NCBI RefSeq assembly: GCF_005116475.1
Contig: NZ_SWBO01000007.1
Coordinates: forward strand, 124,001 to 188,000
DNA length: 64,000 nt
Direction of reading: 5' to 3'
DNA from: Pedobacter cryotolerans
Lineage (GTDB): Bacteria; Bacteroidota; Bacteroidia; Sphingobacteriales; Sphingobacteriaceae
Each line of letters starts with the position of its first letter. The first letter of the stretch is position 1. Below are positions 51,844-60,493 of the stretch, piece by piece. The notes under the pieces are model-generated. The model saw nothing but the letters and a program-made list of their open reading frames with translations, had not been told where the DNA came from and searched no databases. The position numbers were made by a program, and so were the translations under genes.

Positions 51844-53595
51844 ATGAAGATTATAACCAAACAAGAATTTGCCAAAGCAACCAAAATTGATAAGTTAGGC
51901 GTACCAGGCCTTGCTACTTTGTTAATGGAGGTAATGAAGTTGAATGACATTAACGAAGTATTTTCTAAAAATGAGCATTTTGCAGGACTAGAATTTGTTG
52001 ATAAAATTTTAGAAACCATTGGCGTAACGATAGATTTTGATGAGGAGGATTTAAAGAATATCCCTAAAACAGGGGGCTTTATTGCAATTGCAAATCATCC
52101 GTATGGAGGTGTAGAAGGCTTGGCTTTGGTAAAACTGCTGTGTACAGTTAGGCCAGAGGCGAAGGTAATGGTAAATTTTATCCTCAAAAAAATCCCTAAT
52201 TTAAGTGAGTTTTTTGTGGCAGTTAATCCTTTCGAAAATGTTCAACATTCATCGAGCATTAGCGGTTTAAAAGCAACTTTTGATTTATTGCAAAGCGGTA
52301 CTCCTATCGGGATTTTTCCGGCAGGAGAAGTTTCTACTTTTAATTTAGAAACCCAAGAAATTACAGACCGATTGTGGCACCCGGTGGTTGGCAAATTAAT
52401 CTCTAGATCTAAAGTACCGGTTGTACCTATCTATTTTCATGGCAATAATGGTGTGCTTTTTAACATCTTGAGTTTTATACACCCTACGTTAAGAACTGCC
52501 AAATTGCCATCAGAGTTTTTAAATAAAAAAGGTTTAAAAATTAAAGTACGCATTGGCAAGCCTATTAAAATTGAAGACATCAGCTATAAAAAGGATACCA
52601 ATAAATTACTAGATTTTTTAAGAGCAAGAACTTACGCATTGGGCACAAGTTTAGAGCAGGAGAAAAAACTTTTTAATCCGATAAATTTATTTAAACGTAA
52701 GAAAAACCCAGATGCCGTAGTTGCTGAAACAGACAGAGGTTTAATAGTTACTGAAGTTGCCAAATTAGAGGAGTTTAGGGTTTGGGAAGAAAAAAACTAT
52801 GAAGTTTATATTGTACCAACCGCAAGCATTCCGAATATTTTACGTGAAATTGGTCGCTTACGCGAAATTACTTTTAGAGAGGTTGGTGAAGGCACAAATA
52901 AGAAAATTGATTTAGATAATTACGACATTTATTATAACCATTTATTTATTTGGGATAAAGATTTACAAAATATTGTTGGGGCATACAGAATTGGCAAGGG
53001 CGATGAAATTTTAGACACCATGGGGAGAAGAGGTTTTTACCTATCGGAATTGTTTAAAATTAAAGAACCTTTTTATCCGATTTTAAGACAAGGCATAGAA
53101 CTTGGCCGCTCGTGGATTAGAAAAGAATATCAACAAAAACCTTTGCCGCTGTTTTTATTATGGAAGGGAATTTTAAAATACCTGATTGACAATCCGCAAT
53201 ACCGTTACATGTTTGGGCCAGTAAGTATCAGTAATAATTTTTCTAAATTATCTAAATCTCTGATTGTTGATTACATCATTAAAAATCATTTTGATTATGA
53301 ATTGGCTTCTTACGTAAAACCAAAAAATAAATTTAAAGCAGATTTAACAGCTATTGATAGAGATTTGTTGGTTGAGAGTAGCGAATCGCTCAAAGATTTA
53401 GATGGTTTGATTGGCGATATCGAAAATTCGCACATTAAAATTCCGGTGTTATTGAGACAGTACATGAATTTAAATGCTAAGATTATCTGTTTTAATATCG
53501 ACCCTAAATTTTCAGATTGTTTAGATGGATTTTTAGTAGTTGATGCACATAAAATTCCGGCAGAAATGTTGGAGAAAATTGGAAAGAATTTCTAA
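51844..53595 (+). CDS. olsF: Two-domain acyltransferase, OlsF-like ornithine/glycine-lipid synthase
   Basis: The 583-residue protein combines a PlsC-type lysophospholipid acyltransferase (about 50-285: AIANHPYGGVEGLALVKLL, GIFPAGEVSTF, VVPIYFHGNNG) with a C-terminal GNAT-type N-acyltransferase (about 300-560: REIGRLREITFREVGEG, FYLSELFKIKEPFYPILRQG, IELGRSWIRKEYQQKPLPLF, YRYMFGPVSISNNFSK). That order is what is described for the bifunctional OlsF of Flavobacterium and Serratia, where the C-terminal half makes the lyso-aminolipid and the N-terminal half adds the second acyl chain. The amino acid acceptor (ornithine or glycine) is not determinable here. It is divergent from the HhH-apt pair. 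Confidence 0.8.
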   Translation: MKIITKQEFAKATKIDKLGVPGLATLLMEVMKLNDINEVFSKNEHFAGLEFVDKILETIGVTIDFDEEDLKNIPKTGGFIAIANHPYGGVEGLALVKLLCTVRPEAKVMVNFILKKIPNLSEFFVAVNPFENVQHSSSISGLKATFDLLQSGTPIGIFPAGEVSTFNLETQEITDRLWHPVVGKLISRSKVPVVPIYFHGNNGVLFNILSFIHPTLRTAKLPSEFLNKKGLKIKVRIGKPIKIEDISYKKDTNKLLDFLRARTYALGTSLEQEKKLFNPINLFKRKKNPDAVVAETDRGLIVTEVAKLEEFRVWEEKNYEVYIVPTASIPNILREIGRLREITFREVGEGTNKKIDLDNYDIYYNHLFIWDKDLQNIVGAYRIGKGDEILDTMGRRGFYLSELFKIKEPFYPILRQGIELGRSWIRKEYQQKPLPLFLLWKGILKYLIDNPQYRYMFGPVSISNNFSKLSKSLIVDYIIKNHFDYELASYVKPKNKFKADLTAIDRDLLVESSESLKDLDGLIGDIENSHIKIPVLLRQYMNLNAKIICFNIDPKFSDCLDGFLVVDAHKIPAEMLEKIGKNF

Positions 53596-53650
53596 ACCCC
53601 AACCCCCTGAAGGGGGCTTCATAGTTCAACTCCCCTTTAGGGGTTGGGGG
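53596..53650. repeat. C/G-rich nested palindrome directly after the olsF-like stop codon
   Basis: The stop codon runs straight into ACCCCAACCCCCTGAAGGGG, then GCTTCATAGTTCAACTCCCC and TTTAGGGGTTGGGGG. The outer arms CCCCAACCCC and GGGGTTGGGG pair, and the inner pairs CCCCC/GGGGG and CCCC/GGGG can pair instead, so two folds compete. A shorter relative touches the rpoC stop codon. Confidence 0.7.
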
Positions 53651-53657
53651 TAATAAC

Positions 53658-53686
53658 AAAAGCCACGACATCCATCGTGGCTTTTT
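53658..53686 (+). terminator. Terminator of the olsF-like gene
   Basis: AGCCACGA (53661-53668) and TCGTGGCT (53675-53682) with a 6-nt loop and a T-run (TTTT, then GCTTT). Confidence 0.88.
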
Positions 53687-53755
53687 GCTTTACTAACTAA
53701 CCTAAACTTGTTATTTATTAACCAAATATTTAACACCACAAAAGTAGATTCAGGA

Positions 53756-53850
53756 TGTTAAACTGATGTTAAGTATGGGTTATTAAAATGAAAAACTTAA
53801 TATTGCTTCATTGTTAATTTTAGCTACATTTAATGTTAACTAAATATTAA
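53756..53850 (+). promoter_or_regulatory. TGTTAA direct repeats in 11-bp register upstream of the 53855 gene
   Basis: TGTTAA starts at 53756 and 53767, with GGTTAT at 53778 in the same register. Further on TGTTAA starts at 53812 and 53834 with TATTAA at 53845 (offsets 22 and 11). This spacing resembles that of Pho-type boxes and of the array at 59905-59965. The series is shorter and the A/T background raises chance matches. Confidence 0.45.
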
Positions 53851-53854
53851 CAAC

Positions 53855-55057
53855 ATGAAAACAGCTGCCAAAAGTTTGATTGTACTTATAGTGTTAACTA
53901 TATTGATTAATAGCAATATAAAAGGACAAAATTATGCAGTAGATTTTTACGAGCACACTTTTAATTTCACGGCAGATGAAACTATAACTATCAAATTTGA
54001 TGGCGATTTAAACAAAGAAGCTGTGGTTTCATTTTATAATGAAATTAGCAAAAGCAATCACCAATCCATTATTAATTCTCTTTTAAAATATAAGGCTGAT
54101 TATAAACTGAATGATTGGTTGTACTATCAATTAATTAGAAAAACCGCACAGCAACTAAGTCCGAAAAATATAAATTACAACAGGTATACATTGTATAAAT
54201 GGTTTTTGATGAACAAATCTGGTTACGATGCCAAACTTGCTATTGGAAATAACCAACTGATTTTTTATGTTTTTAATGATGAAGACATTGCTGATATTCC
54301 GTTTTTTATGGTAGATGATAAAAAATATATGTGTTTAAATTACCATGACTTTGGCAGACTATTTAATAAAGAAAGTGTTTATATTCCTGTTAAAATTAAT
54401 ATTCCAGAAGCAACGCATTCCTTTAGTTATAAAGTTACCCGACTGCCAGATTTTAAACCAGAACAGTACACCGAAAAACAAATTAGCTTTAATTACAAGC
54501 AAAAACCTTATCACTTTAAAATTAAAATAAGTAGTGAAATAGAAGGTATTTTTGCTAACTATCCGGTAGTTGATTTTGCAACCTATTTTAATATTCCTTT
54601 AAGTAGAGAAACTTACCAATCGTTTATTCCGATACTAAAAGATAAATTAAAAAAAATGAGCAAAAAAAACGGGGTTGATTATTTGATGCGTTTTACCAGA
54701 TATGCGTTTTTATATGAAGATGATGAAGCAAATTATGGCAAGGAAAAAAGATTATCGCCAGAACAAACTTTGTTTACAGAATCTAGCGATTGCGATGATA
54801 GAGCAGCTTTATTTTTTTATTTAGTTAAAGAAATTTATAATTTACCGATGATTGCCATGCTTTATCCCACTCATATTACGATGGCAGTTGAGTTAGAAAA
54901 ACCAATTGGCGATGTGGTGATTTATCAAGGAAAATCGTATTCTGTTTGTGAGCCAACACCACAAAAACAAAATTTAAAGATTGGCCAAATGGCCGCTAAT
55001 TTGCGAAATATACCTTATCAAATTGTTTATGCTTATGCTCCTTCTCCAATAAAATAG
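53855..55057 (+). CDS. Secreted protein with a transglutaminase-like C-terminal domain
   Basis: The 400-residue protein has a signal peptide ending near KGQ (residues 1-25). The central part (about 30-260) is rich in beta strands with no match I know. The C-terminal part has the transglutaminase-like order Cys313 (ESSDCDDRAALFFYLVKE), His340 (LYPTHITMAVEL) and an acidic residue near Glu366 (YSVCEPTPQ), with a preceding FTRYAFLYEDD. Such papain-like folds are often peptidases or protein-processing enzymes; activity is not established here. It is a single gene preceded by TGTTAA-type repeats. Confidence 0.7.
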   Translation: MKTAAKSLIVLIVLTILINSNIKGQNYAVDFYEHTFNFTADETITIKFDGDLNKEAVVSFYNEISKSNHQSIINSLLKYKADYKLNDWLYYQLIRKTAQQLSPKNINYNRYTLYKWFLMNKSGYDAKLAIGNNQLIFYVFNDEDIADIPFFMVDDKKYMCLNYHDFGRLFNKESVYIPVKINIPEATHSFSYKVTRLPDFKPEQYTEKQISFNYKQKPYHFKIKISSEIEGIFANYPVVDFATYFNIPLSRETYQSFIPILKDKLKKMSKKNGVDYLMRFTRYAFLYEDDEANYGKEKRLSPEQTLFTESSDCDDRAALFFYLVKEIYNLPMIAMLYPTHITMAVELEKPIGDVVIYQGKSYSVCEPTPQKQNLKIGQMAANLRNIPYQIVYAYAPSPIK

Positions 55058-55498: not shown

Positions 55499-57007
55499 TT
55501 ACAAATAAACATTTTGTTGAGGCGTAAAACTTGCCCAACCAGTTGACCAATCTGTAGTACCAAACGCACCTCTATAGGTTACTGTTTCAAATCCTGATAA
55601 ACCAGTAAAGTTAGCGCCACTTAGCAAAATAGAGCCTGTATTTGGTGTAAGTTTTGGAGTTGCACCTAAATCAAATATAGATCCATCAATACCCATATCT
55701 TCCCATTTTGGTAGGCTTTGGTTTCCAAATGCAGTAGTGTTAAACCATTCAACAACTGTTTGGGCACCAATGTTTCCATTAGAAATAATTGGACTACCTT
55801 TTGGATTAGGAAAATTCACAGAACCACCTGTTCCATAACCATTATCACCCCAACCATTTACACCTGCAAGAACATTGTTTTTAAATACTAAATCTCCACT
55901 TGCTGCATTTGCTAAAGTTGTAGATCCATCAATATATAATCCATTAGGATAACCAGTAAAAACCGAGTTATGAATCTTTAACTTATTATTTCTTCTTAAA
56001 TGCAAAGCATTTTGAAATTGAACAGAAATCGTTTTGTCTTTATCTTTCTTTGGACCTATAATTGTCATGTTTGAAAATGTACCAGAAGTAAAAGGACTAG
56101 CAGCAGAGCCTGTTCCATCATTATCAACTTCAAATCCATTAGAACCAGATTGATCAGCTGCATTTGCGTCTCTAATACCAATTGCAAATTGAACTTTACC
56201 ATTGTAACCAAAATCTACATCAAAATCATCATCTAAACCACGGTAAGCAATTAAGTGTTTTGCATTAACTGTTCCACCGAACCACTCAAAGGCATCATCT
56301 AAACCATAAGAACATTGTACATAATCTACAACTGTAGCACTTCCAACTGAGCCCATTGTTAATGAGTTAACCTCTTGATTTGGATTTATTGGCGTACCTG
56401 CATATTCAATTCTAACATATTTAATTACACCAGAATTATCTGTATTTGCTGTACCACCATGCCATGCGCCATAATTTCCTTCTAATTCTGCTTCGCCATT
56501 TGGCTGATTATTAACGGCTTTACCACAAATAACTAAACCTCCCCAATCTCCTGGTTCGCGGAAACCTGGAGCTCTTTCTGAAGTAAATATAATTGGTGCA
56601 CTAGCAGTACCCTCAGCTAATATTTTATTTCCTCTTTGAACAACCAAAGTACCTTTACTCTCGCGATCGCCGATTATGGTTGTCCCAGCTTCAATTTCTA
56701 AAGTTATGTTTTCTACTGCAGGCAAGCTTTGCGTATTTTTAGCATCTCTACCAACTCTAACAAATCCATTGATACGGTAAACCTTATCTTTTGTCCATTT
56801 TGTATTTACCAAAATATTACCAGCTGGAATTTCTACTATACTTTTAGTAGTTGTGCCACCACCATCTCCATCTGTTTTACCAGCTTCGATATACTCAATG
56901 ATGGTTGTTTTTTTACAAGCACCAAATACTAGTGATAAGCTCAAAATAAGCAAGGCTGCTTTAGATTTGAAATTTAATTTTGTTTTGTAATTGAATTGCA
57001 TATTCAT
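55499..57007 (-). CDS. Beta-helix lipoprotein paired with a TonB receptor
   Basis: A 502-residue lipoprotein (lipobox VFGAC, Cys31). The mature protein has the irregular repeats of a right-handed beta-helix: LEIEAGTTIIGDRESKGTLV near 96-115, APIIFTSERAPGFREPGDWG near 134-153, SGVIKYVRIEYAG near 190-202 and LHLRRNNKLKIHNSVFTGYP near 331-350. No catalytic triad is evident, so binding rather than cleavage is likely. It lies 35 bp after the TonB receptor in one operon. I recall such pairs in many Bacteroidota but not their substrate. Confidence 0.8.
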   Translation of the reverse strand: MNMQFNYKTKLNFKSKAALLILSLSLVFGACKKTTIIEYIEAGKTDGDGGGTTTKSIVEIPAGNILVNTKWTKDKVYRINGFVRVGRDAKNTQSLPAVENITLEIEAGTTIIGDRESKGTLVVQRGNKILAEGTASAPIIFTSERAPGFREPGDWGGLVICGKAVNNQPNGEAELEGNYGAWHGGTANTDNSGVIKYVRIEYAGTPINPNQEVNSLTMGSVGSATVVDYVQCSYGLDDAFEWFGGTVNAKHLIAYRGLDDDFDVDFGYNGKVQFAIGIRDANAADQSGSNGFEVDNDGTGSAASPFTSGTFSNMTIIGPKKDKDKTISVQFQNALHLRRNNKLKIHNSVFTGYPNGLYIDGSTTLANAASGDLVFKNNVLAGVNGWGDNGYGTGGSVNFPNPKGSPIISNGNIGAQTVVEWFNTTAFGNQSLPKWEDMGIDGSIFDLGATPKLTPNTGSILLSGANFTGLSGFETVTYRGAFGTTDWSTGWASFTPQQNVYL

Positions 57008-57042: not shown

Positions 57043-59865
57043 TTAAAATAATTTATAGGTAAGCGTTAAGCCAAATAATCGACCATTTCGGAAACTTGAG
57101 ATGGTTTGATCTCCTATTCTATCAAATGTGCCATCACCATTTCCATCTTGAAGGAATAAAGATTCTTGATTAAGAAGATCATTAAGATTTGCTCTTAAAC
57201 TCAATTTATTTGTGAAAGTTTTAGTAACCGTTAAGTCTAATACATTTCTCGGCATCTCATAGATATCTGGGTATCCTGGGTATCCTACATAAGCTATTCG
57301 TTTACCAATTACATTATATAAGAGATTTACTTGTACCTTACTTTTTACATTATTATAAAATAAAGCTGTATTTAAAATATAAGGCGCTTGCCCTTGTAGT
57401 GATCTATCAACATCAGAAGATAATTCTGGATTTCTTAAAACCACACTGCTATTAATGTATGATGTATTTACTAAAACAGTTAAATCATCAACAAATTTTA
57501 AATTTGTTAGTCCATTTAATGACTTTCTAACCTCTAGCTCTACACCATAATTTTGTGCAGAGATTTGATTTTCGAATGAAAAAGTTTTAGCACCTCCTGA
57601 ACCGGCACCTGGAATAAATACAGTCTCAATTGGATTTATAAAACGCTTGTAAAAGCCAGAAACACTTATAATTTCTGAAGAAGATGGATAAAACTCAAAC
57701 TTAGCATCATAATTATCAATACTTGATGTTTGTAAGTCTTTGTTACCTTTATTTGTGAAATTTAAATCAAAATCATAAAAACTAAATGGGGCTAACTCTC
57801 TAAACTCTGGTCTATTAAGCGTTTTACCATAAGCTAAACGAAATAACATTTTCTCGTTTATATTGTATGATAAATTTGCAGAAGGCAATAGTTTAGTAAT
57901 GTCATTATTTACATTTACAGGACCTTGATCATCTGCGCTTGTTAGCGTTTGTAAATTGTTTTCTACACGAGCACCAGCAACTAGTGTTAATTTATCTTTT
58001 AATGGTAAGATGAAATTGGCATAACCAGCGAATAATCTATTTGTTGCAAAATAATTATCATTTGGATTTGATTTTTCATCCAATTTAACACCAGTATTTG
58101 TATTAATATTTTCCCATGCAAACAATTGATCAATTGGCTGATTAAGTAAATCAGTGTTAAACTGAGAGCTATTTGCTCTTACATAACCGATGTTTCTTGA
58201 AGTAAAATCACGATTTTTATCTTCAAAATAACCACCAATTTTTAAACTCGGCTTAAATATCTCAGATTTCGGATTTAGTGCTTGCTCAATATTAAAAACT
58301 CCTGTTTTAACGTTTTCATCCATCCTTGAATAGAAACGACCCAAAAATTCTGCTTGAGCTGCGCCAATTGGAACAAATAAGGTTTTTTCACCTGTGGTAG
58401 TATTTACATCAGAACGGTATCTTTTGTAATCTGGCTGATCACGATAAGATTTACCGTATCCAATTACCCAATCTAACTTGGTATTTTCACCATTAAATTT
58501 ATGTGTTCCTGTTAATTGTCCTGAATACACTCCTCTATATAAAACACTTGAGGCATAGCTATCTGGAGAATAATTAGACTCGAAATTATTACCAGTTCTA
58601 TTGATAAATTGAGATGTACTTAATTGGTTGTATAAATTTTTAAACTCGAAAGTATGACTTGGGTTTAATTTAAATGCCCAATTATGAATAATACCTAAGC
58701 GCACATTATAATTATATTGTTGATCATCATAGTTATAAATAGTGTTTGATCTTTGAGCTACAGGATCGTAAGTATTATAATCTCCTCTGAAAACATCATT
58801 ATTTGTTTTGCTATTACTATAACTGATTGCTGTGATATTACCCAACAATTTATTCTTGATGTTAAAACGCTTACTTCCGTAAATATTTAATTTTTGATCT
58901 AAATTAGCAATGTTATTAACAGGCAACCAAGTATTACCTAAAGCATGACCTGCTGCATTAATTCTACTTGAGGTTGTACTATTTAAGCTCGAAGGAAAAT
59001 TAATAGGTAAATCATTATCTCCAGTATTAAATCCTGAGAAAAATAAATCTCCTGATGAAGGGCGATTAAAAGATTGAAAAGAAGCATTCTGACGATAATT
59101 TGTTCCATAATCAATTGTTAGTTTATCCTCGTCTGGTATACTTTTAACAAATACTTTAACTACACCACCAGCAAAATCTGCTGGTAATTCTGCCGATGGA
59201 CTTTTATATACTAAAATTTTATCTATCTGATTGCTAGGAATTAAATCAAAAGAAAATGATCGAATATCTGTTTCTAAACTTGGAGCAACAACATTATTTA
59301 ACTGTACACTATTGTAACGCTCAGATAACCCCCTAATATTGATAAACCTATTATCTACAATTGTAATACCTGGCACACGACGAACAACTTGAGCTGCATC
59401 AGAGTCTCCAGATTTTTGAATAGTTTGACTAGAAACACCATTTGCGATTGACTGTGATTTTTTTAATTCTGATAAAACAGCAACTTCATTTCCAGTTGGT
59501 CTATTTCCAGAAATAGTAATGGCATTTAGCATTGCCATATCTGGTTCCATTACGGCATTAAGCGTTGTTGTATTTCCTGGGGTTACTACAACATTCGAAA
59601 TTAATTGCCTTTTAAAAGAAACATAAGTAAATATAACTTTATAGGTACCTGGTTTAATTGTATTTAATGAATAATTACCTTCTGCATTTGTGGTTGCACC
59701 AATTGATGTACCCTCAATAAATACCGATAACCCAACTAATTTTTCGCCAGTTCCTTTTTCAGTTACTTGCCCAGAAATTTTACCATTTTGAGCTAAAGTA
59801 ATTGTACTGAAAAAACAGATTAATAGTACAAATCCTGCGCTTTTTAAATTTTGATGTAAGTTCAA
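57043..59865 (-). CDS. TonB-dependent outer-membrane receptor
   Basis: The 940-residue receptor has a signal peptide (about 1-25, ending TLAQ), a carboxypeptidase-like regulatory domain (GKISGQVTEKGTGEKLVGLS, about 28-105), a plug (about 135-235, RRVPGITIVDNRFINIRGLS, ELPADFAGGVVKVFVKSIPD) and a barrel ending in terminal Phe (LTLTYKLF). It is not a SusC type (no VIVVGYG segment). The only start preserving the signal peptide is TTG at 59865, since an in-frame stop lies upstream with no ATG between. An 11-bp array lies 40 bp upstream, so regulation by an OmpR/PhoB-type protein is likely. Confidence 0.92.
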   Translation of the reverse strand: MNLHQNLKSAGFVLLICFFSTITLAQNGKISGQVTEKGTGEKLVGLSVFIEGTSIGATTNAEGNYSLNTIKPGTYKVIFTYVSFKRQLISNVVVTPGNTTTLNAVMEPDMAMLNAITISGNRPTGNEVAVLSELKKSQSIANGVSSQTIQKSGDSDAAQVVRRVPGITIVDNRFINIRGLSERYNSVQLNNVVAPSLETDIRSFSFDLIPSNQIDKILVYKSPSAELPADFAGGVVKVFVKSIPDEDKLTIDYGTNYRQNASFQSFNRPSSGDLFFSGFNTGDNDLPINFPSSLNSTTSSRINAAGHALGNTWLPVNNIANLDQKLNIYGSKRFNIKNKLLGNITAISYSNSKTNNDVFRGDYNTYDPVAQRSNTIYNYDDQQYNYNVRLGIIHNWAFKLNPSHTFEFKNLYNQLSTSQFINRTGNNFESNYSPDSYASSVLYRGVYSGQLTGTHKFNGENTKLDWVIGYGKSYRDQPDYKRYRSDVNTTTGEKTLFVPIGAAQAEFLGRFYSRMDENVKTGVFNIEQALNPKSEIFKPSLKIGGYFEDKNRDFTSRNIGYVRANSSQFNTDLLNQPIDQLFAWENINTNTGVKLDEKSNPNDNYFATNRLFAGYANFILPLKDKLTLVAGARVENNLQTLTSADDQGPVNVNNDITKLLPSANLSYNINEKMLFRLAYGKTLNRPEFRELAPFSFYDFDLNFTNKGNKDLQTSSIDNYDAKFEFYPSSSEIISVSGFYKRFINPIETVFIPGAGSGGAKTFSFENQISAQNYGVELEVRKSLNGLTNLKFVDDLTVLVNTSYINSSVVLRNPELSSDVDRSLQGQAPYILNTALFYNNVKSKVQVNLLYNVIGKRIAYVGYPGYPDIYEMPRNVLDLTVTKTFTNKLSLRANLNDLLNQESLFLQDGNGDGTFDRIGDQTISSFRNGRLFGLTLTYKLF

Positions 59866-59904
59866 TTTGCTTAATTTTTATTTTAAGCAAAAGTATTTCT
59901 ACTA

Positions 59905-59965
59905 TGTTAGCTACATGTTAGCTGTAAATTACCATTCGTTTACCATCGTGTTAACTAATTGTTAA
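59905..59965 (-). promoter_or_regulatory. Six-unit 11-bp-period array upstream of the TonB receptor
   Basis: On the + strand TTA-centred units start exactly every 11 bp: TGTTAG (59905), TGTTAG (59916), AATTAC (59927), GTTTAC (59938), TGTTAA (59949), TGTTAA (59960). In the gene's direction they read TTAACA, TTAACA, GTAAAC, GTAATT, CTAACA, CTAACA. Direct repeats at one helical turn are the layout bound by PhoB/PhoP-type response regulators; TTAACA with 5-bp spacers is also the Bacillus Pho box pattern. The array ends 40 bp before the start codon. Confidence 0.7.
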
Positions 59966-60188
59966 ATGGTTTGGTAATTAATATTTTAAGGCTGTTTTTT
60001 AATAGAATAGATTACATACGATGAATTACCGCTGTTAACAAAAAATTAACTTGGTGGGCTTGTTCGTTGAGGCTGGATTCAAATTAGAATTATGAAATTT
60101 TAAAAGAATTAAATTTGGTGGTTTAGTAATGCTCAGGGATATTTATGTTATAAAAAACAATATTATTGAGGTTAGTTTTAGCATCCTT

Positions 60189-60261
60189 TGTCATTCTGAA
60201 CGAAGTGAAGAATCTCGAATATTGCATTCCAAAATGAGATTCCTCGTTCCTCGGAATGACA
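60189..60261. repeat. Dispersed GTCA..TGAC repeat, copy R7
   Basis: TGTCATTCTGAACGAAGTGA, then AGAATCTCG, and on the right GAGATTCCTCG, CGGAATGACA. It lies in a 628-bp gap (59866-60493) that otherwise contains only the upstream array, A/T-rich DNA and repeat R8. Confidence 0.8.
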
Positions 60262-60318
60262 AAACTAGGAGTTTATATTTTTTTATAAAATATTGGTTTA
60301 TAGAAACTAAATAAATAA

Positions 60319-60444
60319 CGTCAATGGTAGCATCCCGAAGTAAATTCGAAACAAGTGACTTGGCATCGTAATGCATAAGTTAGGAAGTTCTTTAATTCTT
60401 ATCACCCTTATCGCATTACGATTCCCGTATGCACGGGAATGACG
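60319..60444. repeat. Dispersed repeat, copy R8 (long, degenerate)
   Basis: CGTCAATGGTAGCATCCCGA at the left and ATTCCCGTATGCACGGGAAT with GACG at the right (60422-60444). The right part is a perfect palindrome, ATTCCCGT-ATGC-ACGGGAAT. The centre is not recognisable. Confidence 0.55.
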
Positions 60445-60493
60445 CGAATTAGATGAGCAATACCATATTTTATTAAAGCCAACAGGAGAAAGC

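Follow-up and report, generated by a model that had tools for sequence, protein, structure and literature searches.

A probable Pho box phased to the Bacteroidota promoter element upstream of a TonB receptor operon and of a predicted small RNA family in Pedobacter

Upstream of a TonB-dependent receptor operon of Pedobacter cryotolerans lies a strictly periodic run of TTA-centred units, which raises the question of which regulator reads it and to which signal it answers. A sequence-only reading of the 64-kb stretch of DNA analysed here (the window) had proposed a Pho-type box under a regulator of the OmpR/PhoB family. Its description of six units exactly every 11 bp holds: on the forward strand TTA stands at 59907, 59918, 59929, 59940, 59951 and 59962, and on the receptor strand the units read TTAACA, TTAACA, GTAAAC, GTAATT, CTAACA and CTAACA, each followed by 5 bp. 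The array does end upstream of the TTG start codon, at a distance of 39 nt rather than the 40 bp given earlier. Six in-phase TTA occur once in the window at period 11 and at none of the other periods from 6 to 21; first-order Markov copies, 200 made from the window and 20,000 from the local intergenic region, contain no such run. Further upstream, REP/MITE-like inverted segments (gtcattctgaacgaagtgaagaatc ... cctcggaatgac, 60186-60445) lengthen the gap between the array and an Mpo1-like gene, whose end in congeners lies about 115 bp upstream of the receptor start.

Table 1. Features of the window with their coordinates, strand and basis.
Feature	Position	Strand	Basis
Six-unit Pho box of 11-bp period (TTAACA-n5 type), receptor operon	59905..59965	-	sequence, period statistics, register kept in orthologous loci
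Promoter -7 element TACTTTTG (TAnnTTTG)	59888..59895	-	sequence; equal spacing in orthologue, DUF47-Pit and small RNA promoters
TonB-dependent receptor (CarboxypepD_reg, plug, beta-barrel; TIGR01782-like), TTG start	57043..59865	-	Pfam, NCBIfam; orthologues always with lipoprotein
Lipoprotein, predicted parallel beta-helix, receptor's partner	55499..57007	-	pair conservation, AlphaFold model
Second Pho-type array: three in-phase TAAC (53757-53782), -7 element TACTTTTG (53739-53746)	53739..53782	-	pattern search; orthologous promoters
Predicted small RNA gene, about 85 nt	53652..53736	-	RNA models R1 and R2, folding z -3.6, covariation
OlsF-like bifunctional acyltransferase (ornithine-lipid synthase type), convergent with small RNA	51844..53595	+	Pfam, NCBIfam, synteny

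Pho boxes consist of 11-bp direct repeats (PMC4415409), the E. coli box lying 10 bp upstream of the -10 element (PMC1906773), and the -7 element of Bacteroidota has the consensus TAnnTTTG (PMC9723704). Two or more direct repeats at this spacing define such a box, and the receptor array has six. A Pho box also holds a fixed position at the core promoter, where it replaces the -35/-33 element, and this too is found: the nearest TAAC begins exactly 14 bp upstream of TACTTTTG at the receptor promoter, and the same 14 bp separate TAAC and TAnnTTTG in the DUF47-Pit and small RNA promoters, the start sites being predicted. Neither the phasing to TACTTTTG nor the second, identically phased array of the window had been noticed in the sequence-only reading. 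In E. coli, phosphorylated PhoB binds its 11-bp repeats head to tail from a box directly upstream of the core promoter (PMC4415409, PMC1906773, PMC3616915); that the distance to TAnnTTTG is invariant argues for the same mode of PhoB action, presumably with an adaptation to the sigma factor of Bacteroidota.

The register of the array is conserved. The receptor orthologues compared, 18 in all, come from uncultured relatives and from named members of Pedobacter, Runella, Rhabdobacter and Arundinibacter; 17 carry the array in equal register, and one uncultured member (L039) has a degenerate version only. With positions anchored on the promoter element closest to the start, TAAC or TAAT (TAAY) stands at -14, -25 and -36 in 14, 14 and 15 of the 18 promoters, respectively. 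In the genome of P. cryotolerans and 24 congeners, the strict pattern TTAAC-N6-TTAAC-N10-TAnnTTTG has 32 sites and its reversal, which served as control, has 1; in 16 genomes from other families of the class the strict pattern has none. The genome search proposed earlier therefore succeeds for arrays phased to TAnnTTTG, whereas plain TTAACA-N5-TTAACA pairs remain at chance level, at or below the reversed control; TAAC triplets with mismatches do likewise, so that neither can be used as a signature. The level of the unphased pairs, together with the A/T-richness of the region, is what a mere chance run of TTA would lead one to expect. Yet such runs are missing from shuffled sequence, phase and promoter spacing are kept across several genera, and the strict pattern outnumbers its control 32 to 1; a chance origin is ruled out by conservation, and we give it practically no weight. 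Among individual matches, two of the six exact degenerate ones in the P. cryotolerans genome (L080, L081) and an in-gene TAAC triplet at C5:68849 (L049) were rejected as chance-like.

The genes that follow these arrays speak to the signal. At 30 strict-pattern loci that were read, a DUF47 (PhoU-like)-Pit gene pair lies downstream in 24 and a short RNA gene in 6. Because these loci had been selected by the pattern itself, the test was repeated from the protein side: 29 of 30 unselected DUF47 orthologues, sampled across the family, are preceded by the array, and every anchored DUF47 promoter (25/25) has TAAY at both -14 and -25. In each of the 24 Pedobacter genomes where the phoB-like gene was found, its promoter carries three in-phase units of its own, with TAAY at -25, -36 and -47. 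In P. cryotolerans a degenerate pattern also precedes a SusC-SusD-DUF5689-phosphoesterase-GDPD operon beside glycerol-3-phosphate genes. On contig 31 (L239, 9442-19721) the order is DeoR regulator, Pho-type array, SusCD, DUF5689, calcineurin-like phosphoesterase and GDPD, next to genes for glycerol kinase and a glycerol-3-phosphate dehydrogenase-like protein; this is a candidate locus for the use of glycerophosphodiesters. The presence of phosphate-acquisition genes and of the regulator gene itself downstream of phased arrays is a further mark of a Pho box and supports the proposal of the sequence-only reading, and judging by gene content the predicted functions are those of phosphate acquisition throughout.

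The regulator gene (G000, C12:400180-400866) encodes a receiver and a Trans_reg_C winged-helix domain. In NCBIfam its product matches two PhoB models best, both below the equivalog cutoff (TIGR02154, 226.5 against 296.2; NF053854, 218.8 against 270), and we therefore call it a PhoB-like orthologue. A PnpS/PhoR-like kinase (NCBIfam) is encoded directly upstream of DUF47-Pit. Orthologues of this kinase, 47-48% identical, directly adjoin the regulator orthologue in two genomes, G028 and G034, so that kinase and regulator most likely belong to a single system whose genes have become separated in Pedobacter. In G028, another Bacteroidia genome, phoB, phoR, the lipoprotein, the receptor and a Na/Pi cotransporter share one cluster.

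The receptor and lipoprotein genes are adjacent in all 18 loci. The receptor matches TIGR01782 (TonB-Xanth-Caul) below its cutoff, and the AlphaFold model of the lipoprotein is beta-rich (pTM 0.81), with most and best matches in the PDB to beta-helix proteins, all of them weak (E at least 0.0038). The pair resembles two receptor/lipoprotein pairs of Flavobacterium johnsoniae, Fjoh_0545/0546 and Fjoh_3857/3856, which are induced by Pi depletion (PMC8115612). There, too, a TonB receptor adjoins a lipoprotein. Fjoh_0545 and Fjoh_0546 are strongly induced and lie within the phoBR operon, and the lipoprotein Fjoh_0546 has a pectin-lyase-fold signature; the likeness to these named proteins is one of arrangement, predicted fold and published description (PMC8115612). 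The cluster of G028 resembles this operon, whereas in Pedobacter the pair lies away from phoB; a Porin_O_P gene close to phoBR, as in F. johnsoniae, was looked for, and the sole match in the genome is weak and lies at another place. An analogous proteobacterial pair, which the Pedobacter genes likewise resemble, is formed by the Caulobacter phosphate-starvation lipoprotein ElpS (Cc0170) and the adjacent TonB receptor Cc0171; it differs from the Pedobacter pair as proposed here in that ElpS is exported by type II secretion and in that Cc0171 is reported to be constitutive (PMC2996285). Next to the pair in the window, 53855-55057 encodes a neighbour that is conserved in Pedobacter at about 50-73% identity and for which Pfam gave no match at E 0.001.

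Tandem sites at 11-bp spacing are typical across the OmpR family. A Pho-like spacing by itself would thus also suit a different response regulator of this family that answers to another signal, such as envelope or metal, and the genome does hold further OmpR-type regulators, for example in the kinase/regulator pair at L238 (14042-16585). Such a regulator is improbable in our estimation, given that the genes downstream of the sites found are DUF47-Pit, phoB itself and phosphoesterase/GDPD genes and that the receptor/lipoprotein pair resembles one induced by phosphate depletion in relatives (PMC8115612). We conclude that the array is very probably a Pho box, through which a PhoB orthologue phosphorylated in phosphate starvation would switch on the receptor/lipoprotein pair together with its other targets.

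We infer that PhoB binds and activates, and also what the pair transports; the sequence, its phasing, its conservation and the target genes are as observed above. During phosphate starvation, the PhoB orthologue would become phosphorylated and line up head to tail on the 11-bp TTAAC units; occupying the place of the -33 element, it would bring RNA polymerase to TACTTTTG. The receptor and its putative beta-helix lipoprotein would thereby be turned on and capture a phosphorus compound, and the same switch would serve DUF47-Pit, phoB, the SusCD-phosphoesterase-GDPD operon and the small RNA. The boxes of E. coli PhoB, Bacillus PhoP and cyanobacterial SphR are likewise 11-bp tandem direct repeats upstream of phosphate genes. 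The resemblance of TTAACA to the Bacillus pattern, which had been pointed out from the sequence, stands as a functional likeness to Pho boxes and not as one specific to Bacillus, since the cyanobacterial SphR unit CTTAACCT is equally close, being nearly identical to the Pedobacter unit (PMC1906773). In contrast to all three, the Pedobacter array is tied to TAnnTTTG, the -7 element of Bacteroidota, reaches up to six units and has Pit and TonB/Sus systems as its targets.

The second array of the window, six kilobases from the first, faces the end of the OlsF-like gene, and no protein-coding gene follows downstream of it. What follows is a predicted RNA with a 5' AU hairpin bearing a UGGUU loop, a conserved unpaired GUUUAGGUUAGUU linker and an intrinsic terminator. 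Own promoter, terminator and conserved unpaired segment, by which a small regulatory RNA is recognised, are all present at this predicted gene. Of 119 Pedobacter genomes, 113 have 1-5 copies each according to a covariance model built without the promoter. The RNA recurs at the equivalent olsF-linked place in other Pedobacter and as extra copies at unrelated loci. Eleven base pairs show two-sided changes and no shuffle reached the covariation score, the signal coming mostly from the terminator, with the 5' hairpin weakly supported. The promoters of all 42 first copies have TAAY at -18 and -40 relative to TTTG, and 36 of the 42 have it at -29; anchored dispersed copies have it at -29 in 17 of 17 and at -18 in 10. 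The olsF-linked copies share ancestry, and their counts are therefore not independent events, the dispersed copies coming nearer to independence. Comparison with Rfam gave no family at the gathering score, only sub-threshold matches.

The element could also be a mere terminator remnant or a 3'-end element of olsF, for its terminator is able to serve both strands and its commonest copy is convergent with olsF. This is an unlikely reading, as other copies lie at unrelated loci away from olsF, each with a phased promoter of its own, and as the stems are less conserved than loop and linker. We regard 53652-53736 as a member of a predicted small RNA family of Pedobacter, genus-wide, multi-copy and apparently driven by Pho-type arrays. 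Other bacteria have small RNAs that are similarly short and structured, with promoter and terminator of their own, such as those predicted for Sinorhizobium (PMC2573895) and Rfp18, found in Flavobacterium (PMC9723704); the Pedobacter RNA differs from them in its Pho-box promoter, its multiple copies across the genus and its lack of an Rfam family. Matches of the model outside Pedobacter (L189-L199) were rejected as weak and mostly confined to the terminator. Two of them (L195, L199, genus g102) show units like the small RNA with a GUUUAGUUUAGUUAGU linker, with TATATCTTTG upstream and with no phased array, and are possibly a distant relative under different control. As for the convergent gene, OlsF is the top NCBIfam match of its protein at 426.8 bits, under the cutoff of 620, and no phased array of its own was seen in the upstream sequence read. 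Between its stop codon and the small RNA terminator, a C/G-rich inverted repeat (ccccaacccctaaagggg ... cccccttcagggggttgggg, 53600-53650) was not seen at that place in the congeners read.

What such an RNA might pair with is suggested by GGUUAG, which is common to loop and linker. The genome has 21 non-self sites that would pair with the linker with at most one mismatch; four near-perfect ones (L324, L325, L333, L334) lie in sense orientation 23-33 nt upstream of a start codon, where a rough estimate expects about 0.4; two of the four genes are susC-like and start with MKKLLRSLF. In sampled stretches of a congener bearing the small RNA, CTAACC shares first place among 60 letter permutations in leaders, with 9 occurrences where the mean is 1.9, and in a relative without a convincing copy it is rare (1 against 2.1). 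In P. cryotolerans itself the count is unremarkable (3 against 1.8, in sampled stretches omitting two that had been chosen for target-hint sites), and the antisense motif AACTAACCTAAAC is not enriched overall (23 against 28 in the control). We tentatively speculate, while holding it less probable than its opposite, that the repeated UUUGGUUAG / UUUAGGUUAG of the Pho-box-driven small RNA might pair with CUAACC(U/A)AA in leaders of envelope genes, those of susC type among them, whereby phosphate starvation would post-transcriptionally retune carbon-uptake receptors.

Bacteroidota are major mobilisers of soil phosphorus. Genes that they express at low phosphate are known (PMC8115612), and the literature searched yielded no account of a DNA switch behind their control, nor of any Bacteroidota Pho box. 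The consensus TTAAC-N6-TTAAC-N10-TAnnTTTG would make the phosphate regulon of Sphingobacteriaceae predictable from sequence, and it at once exposes a predicted genus-wide small RNA that belongs to no Rfam family.
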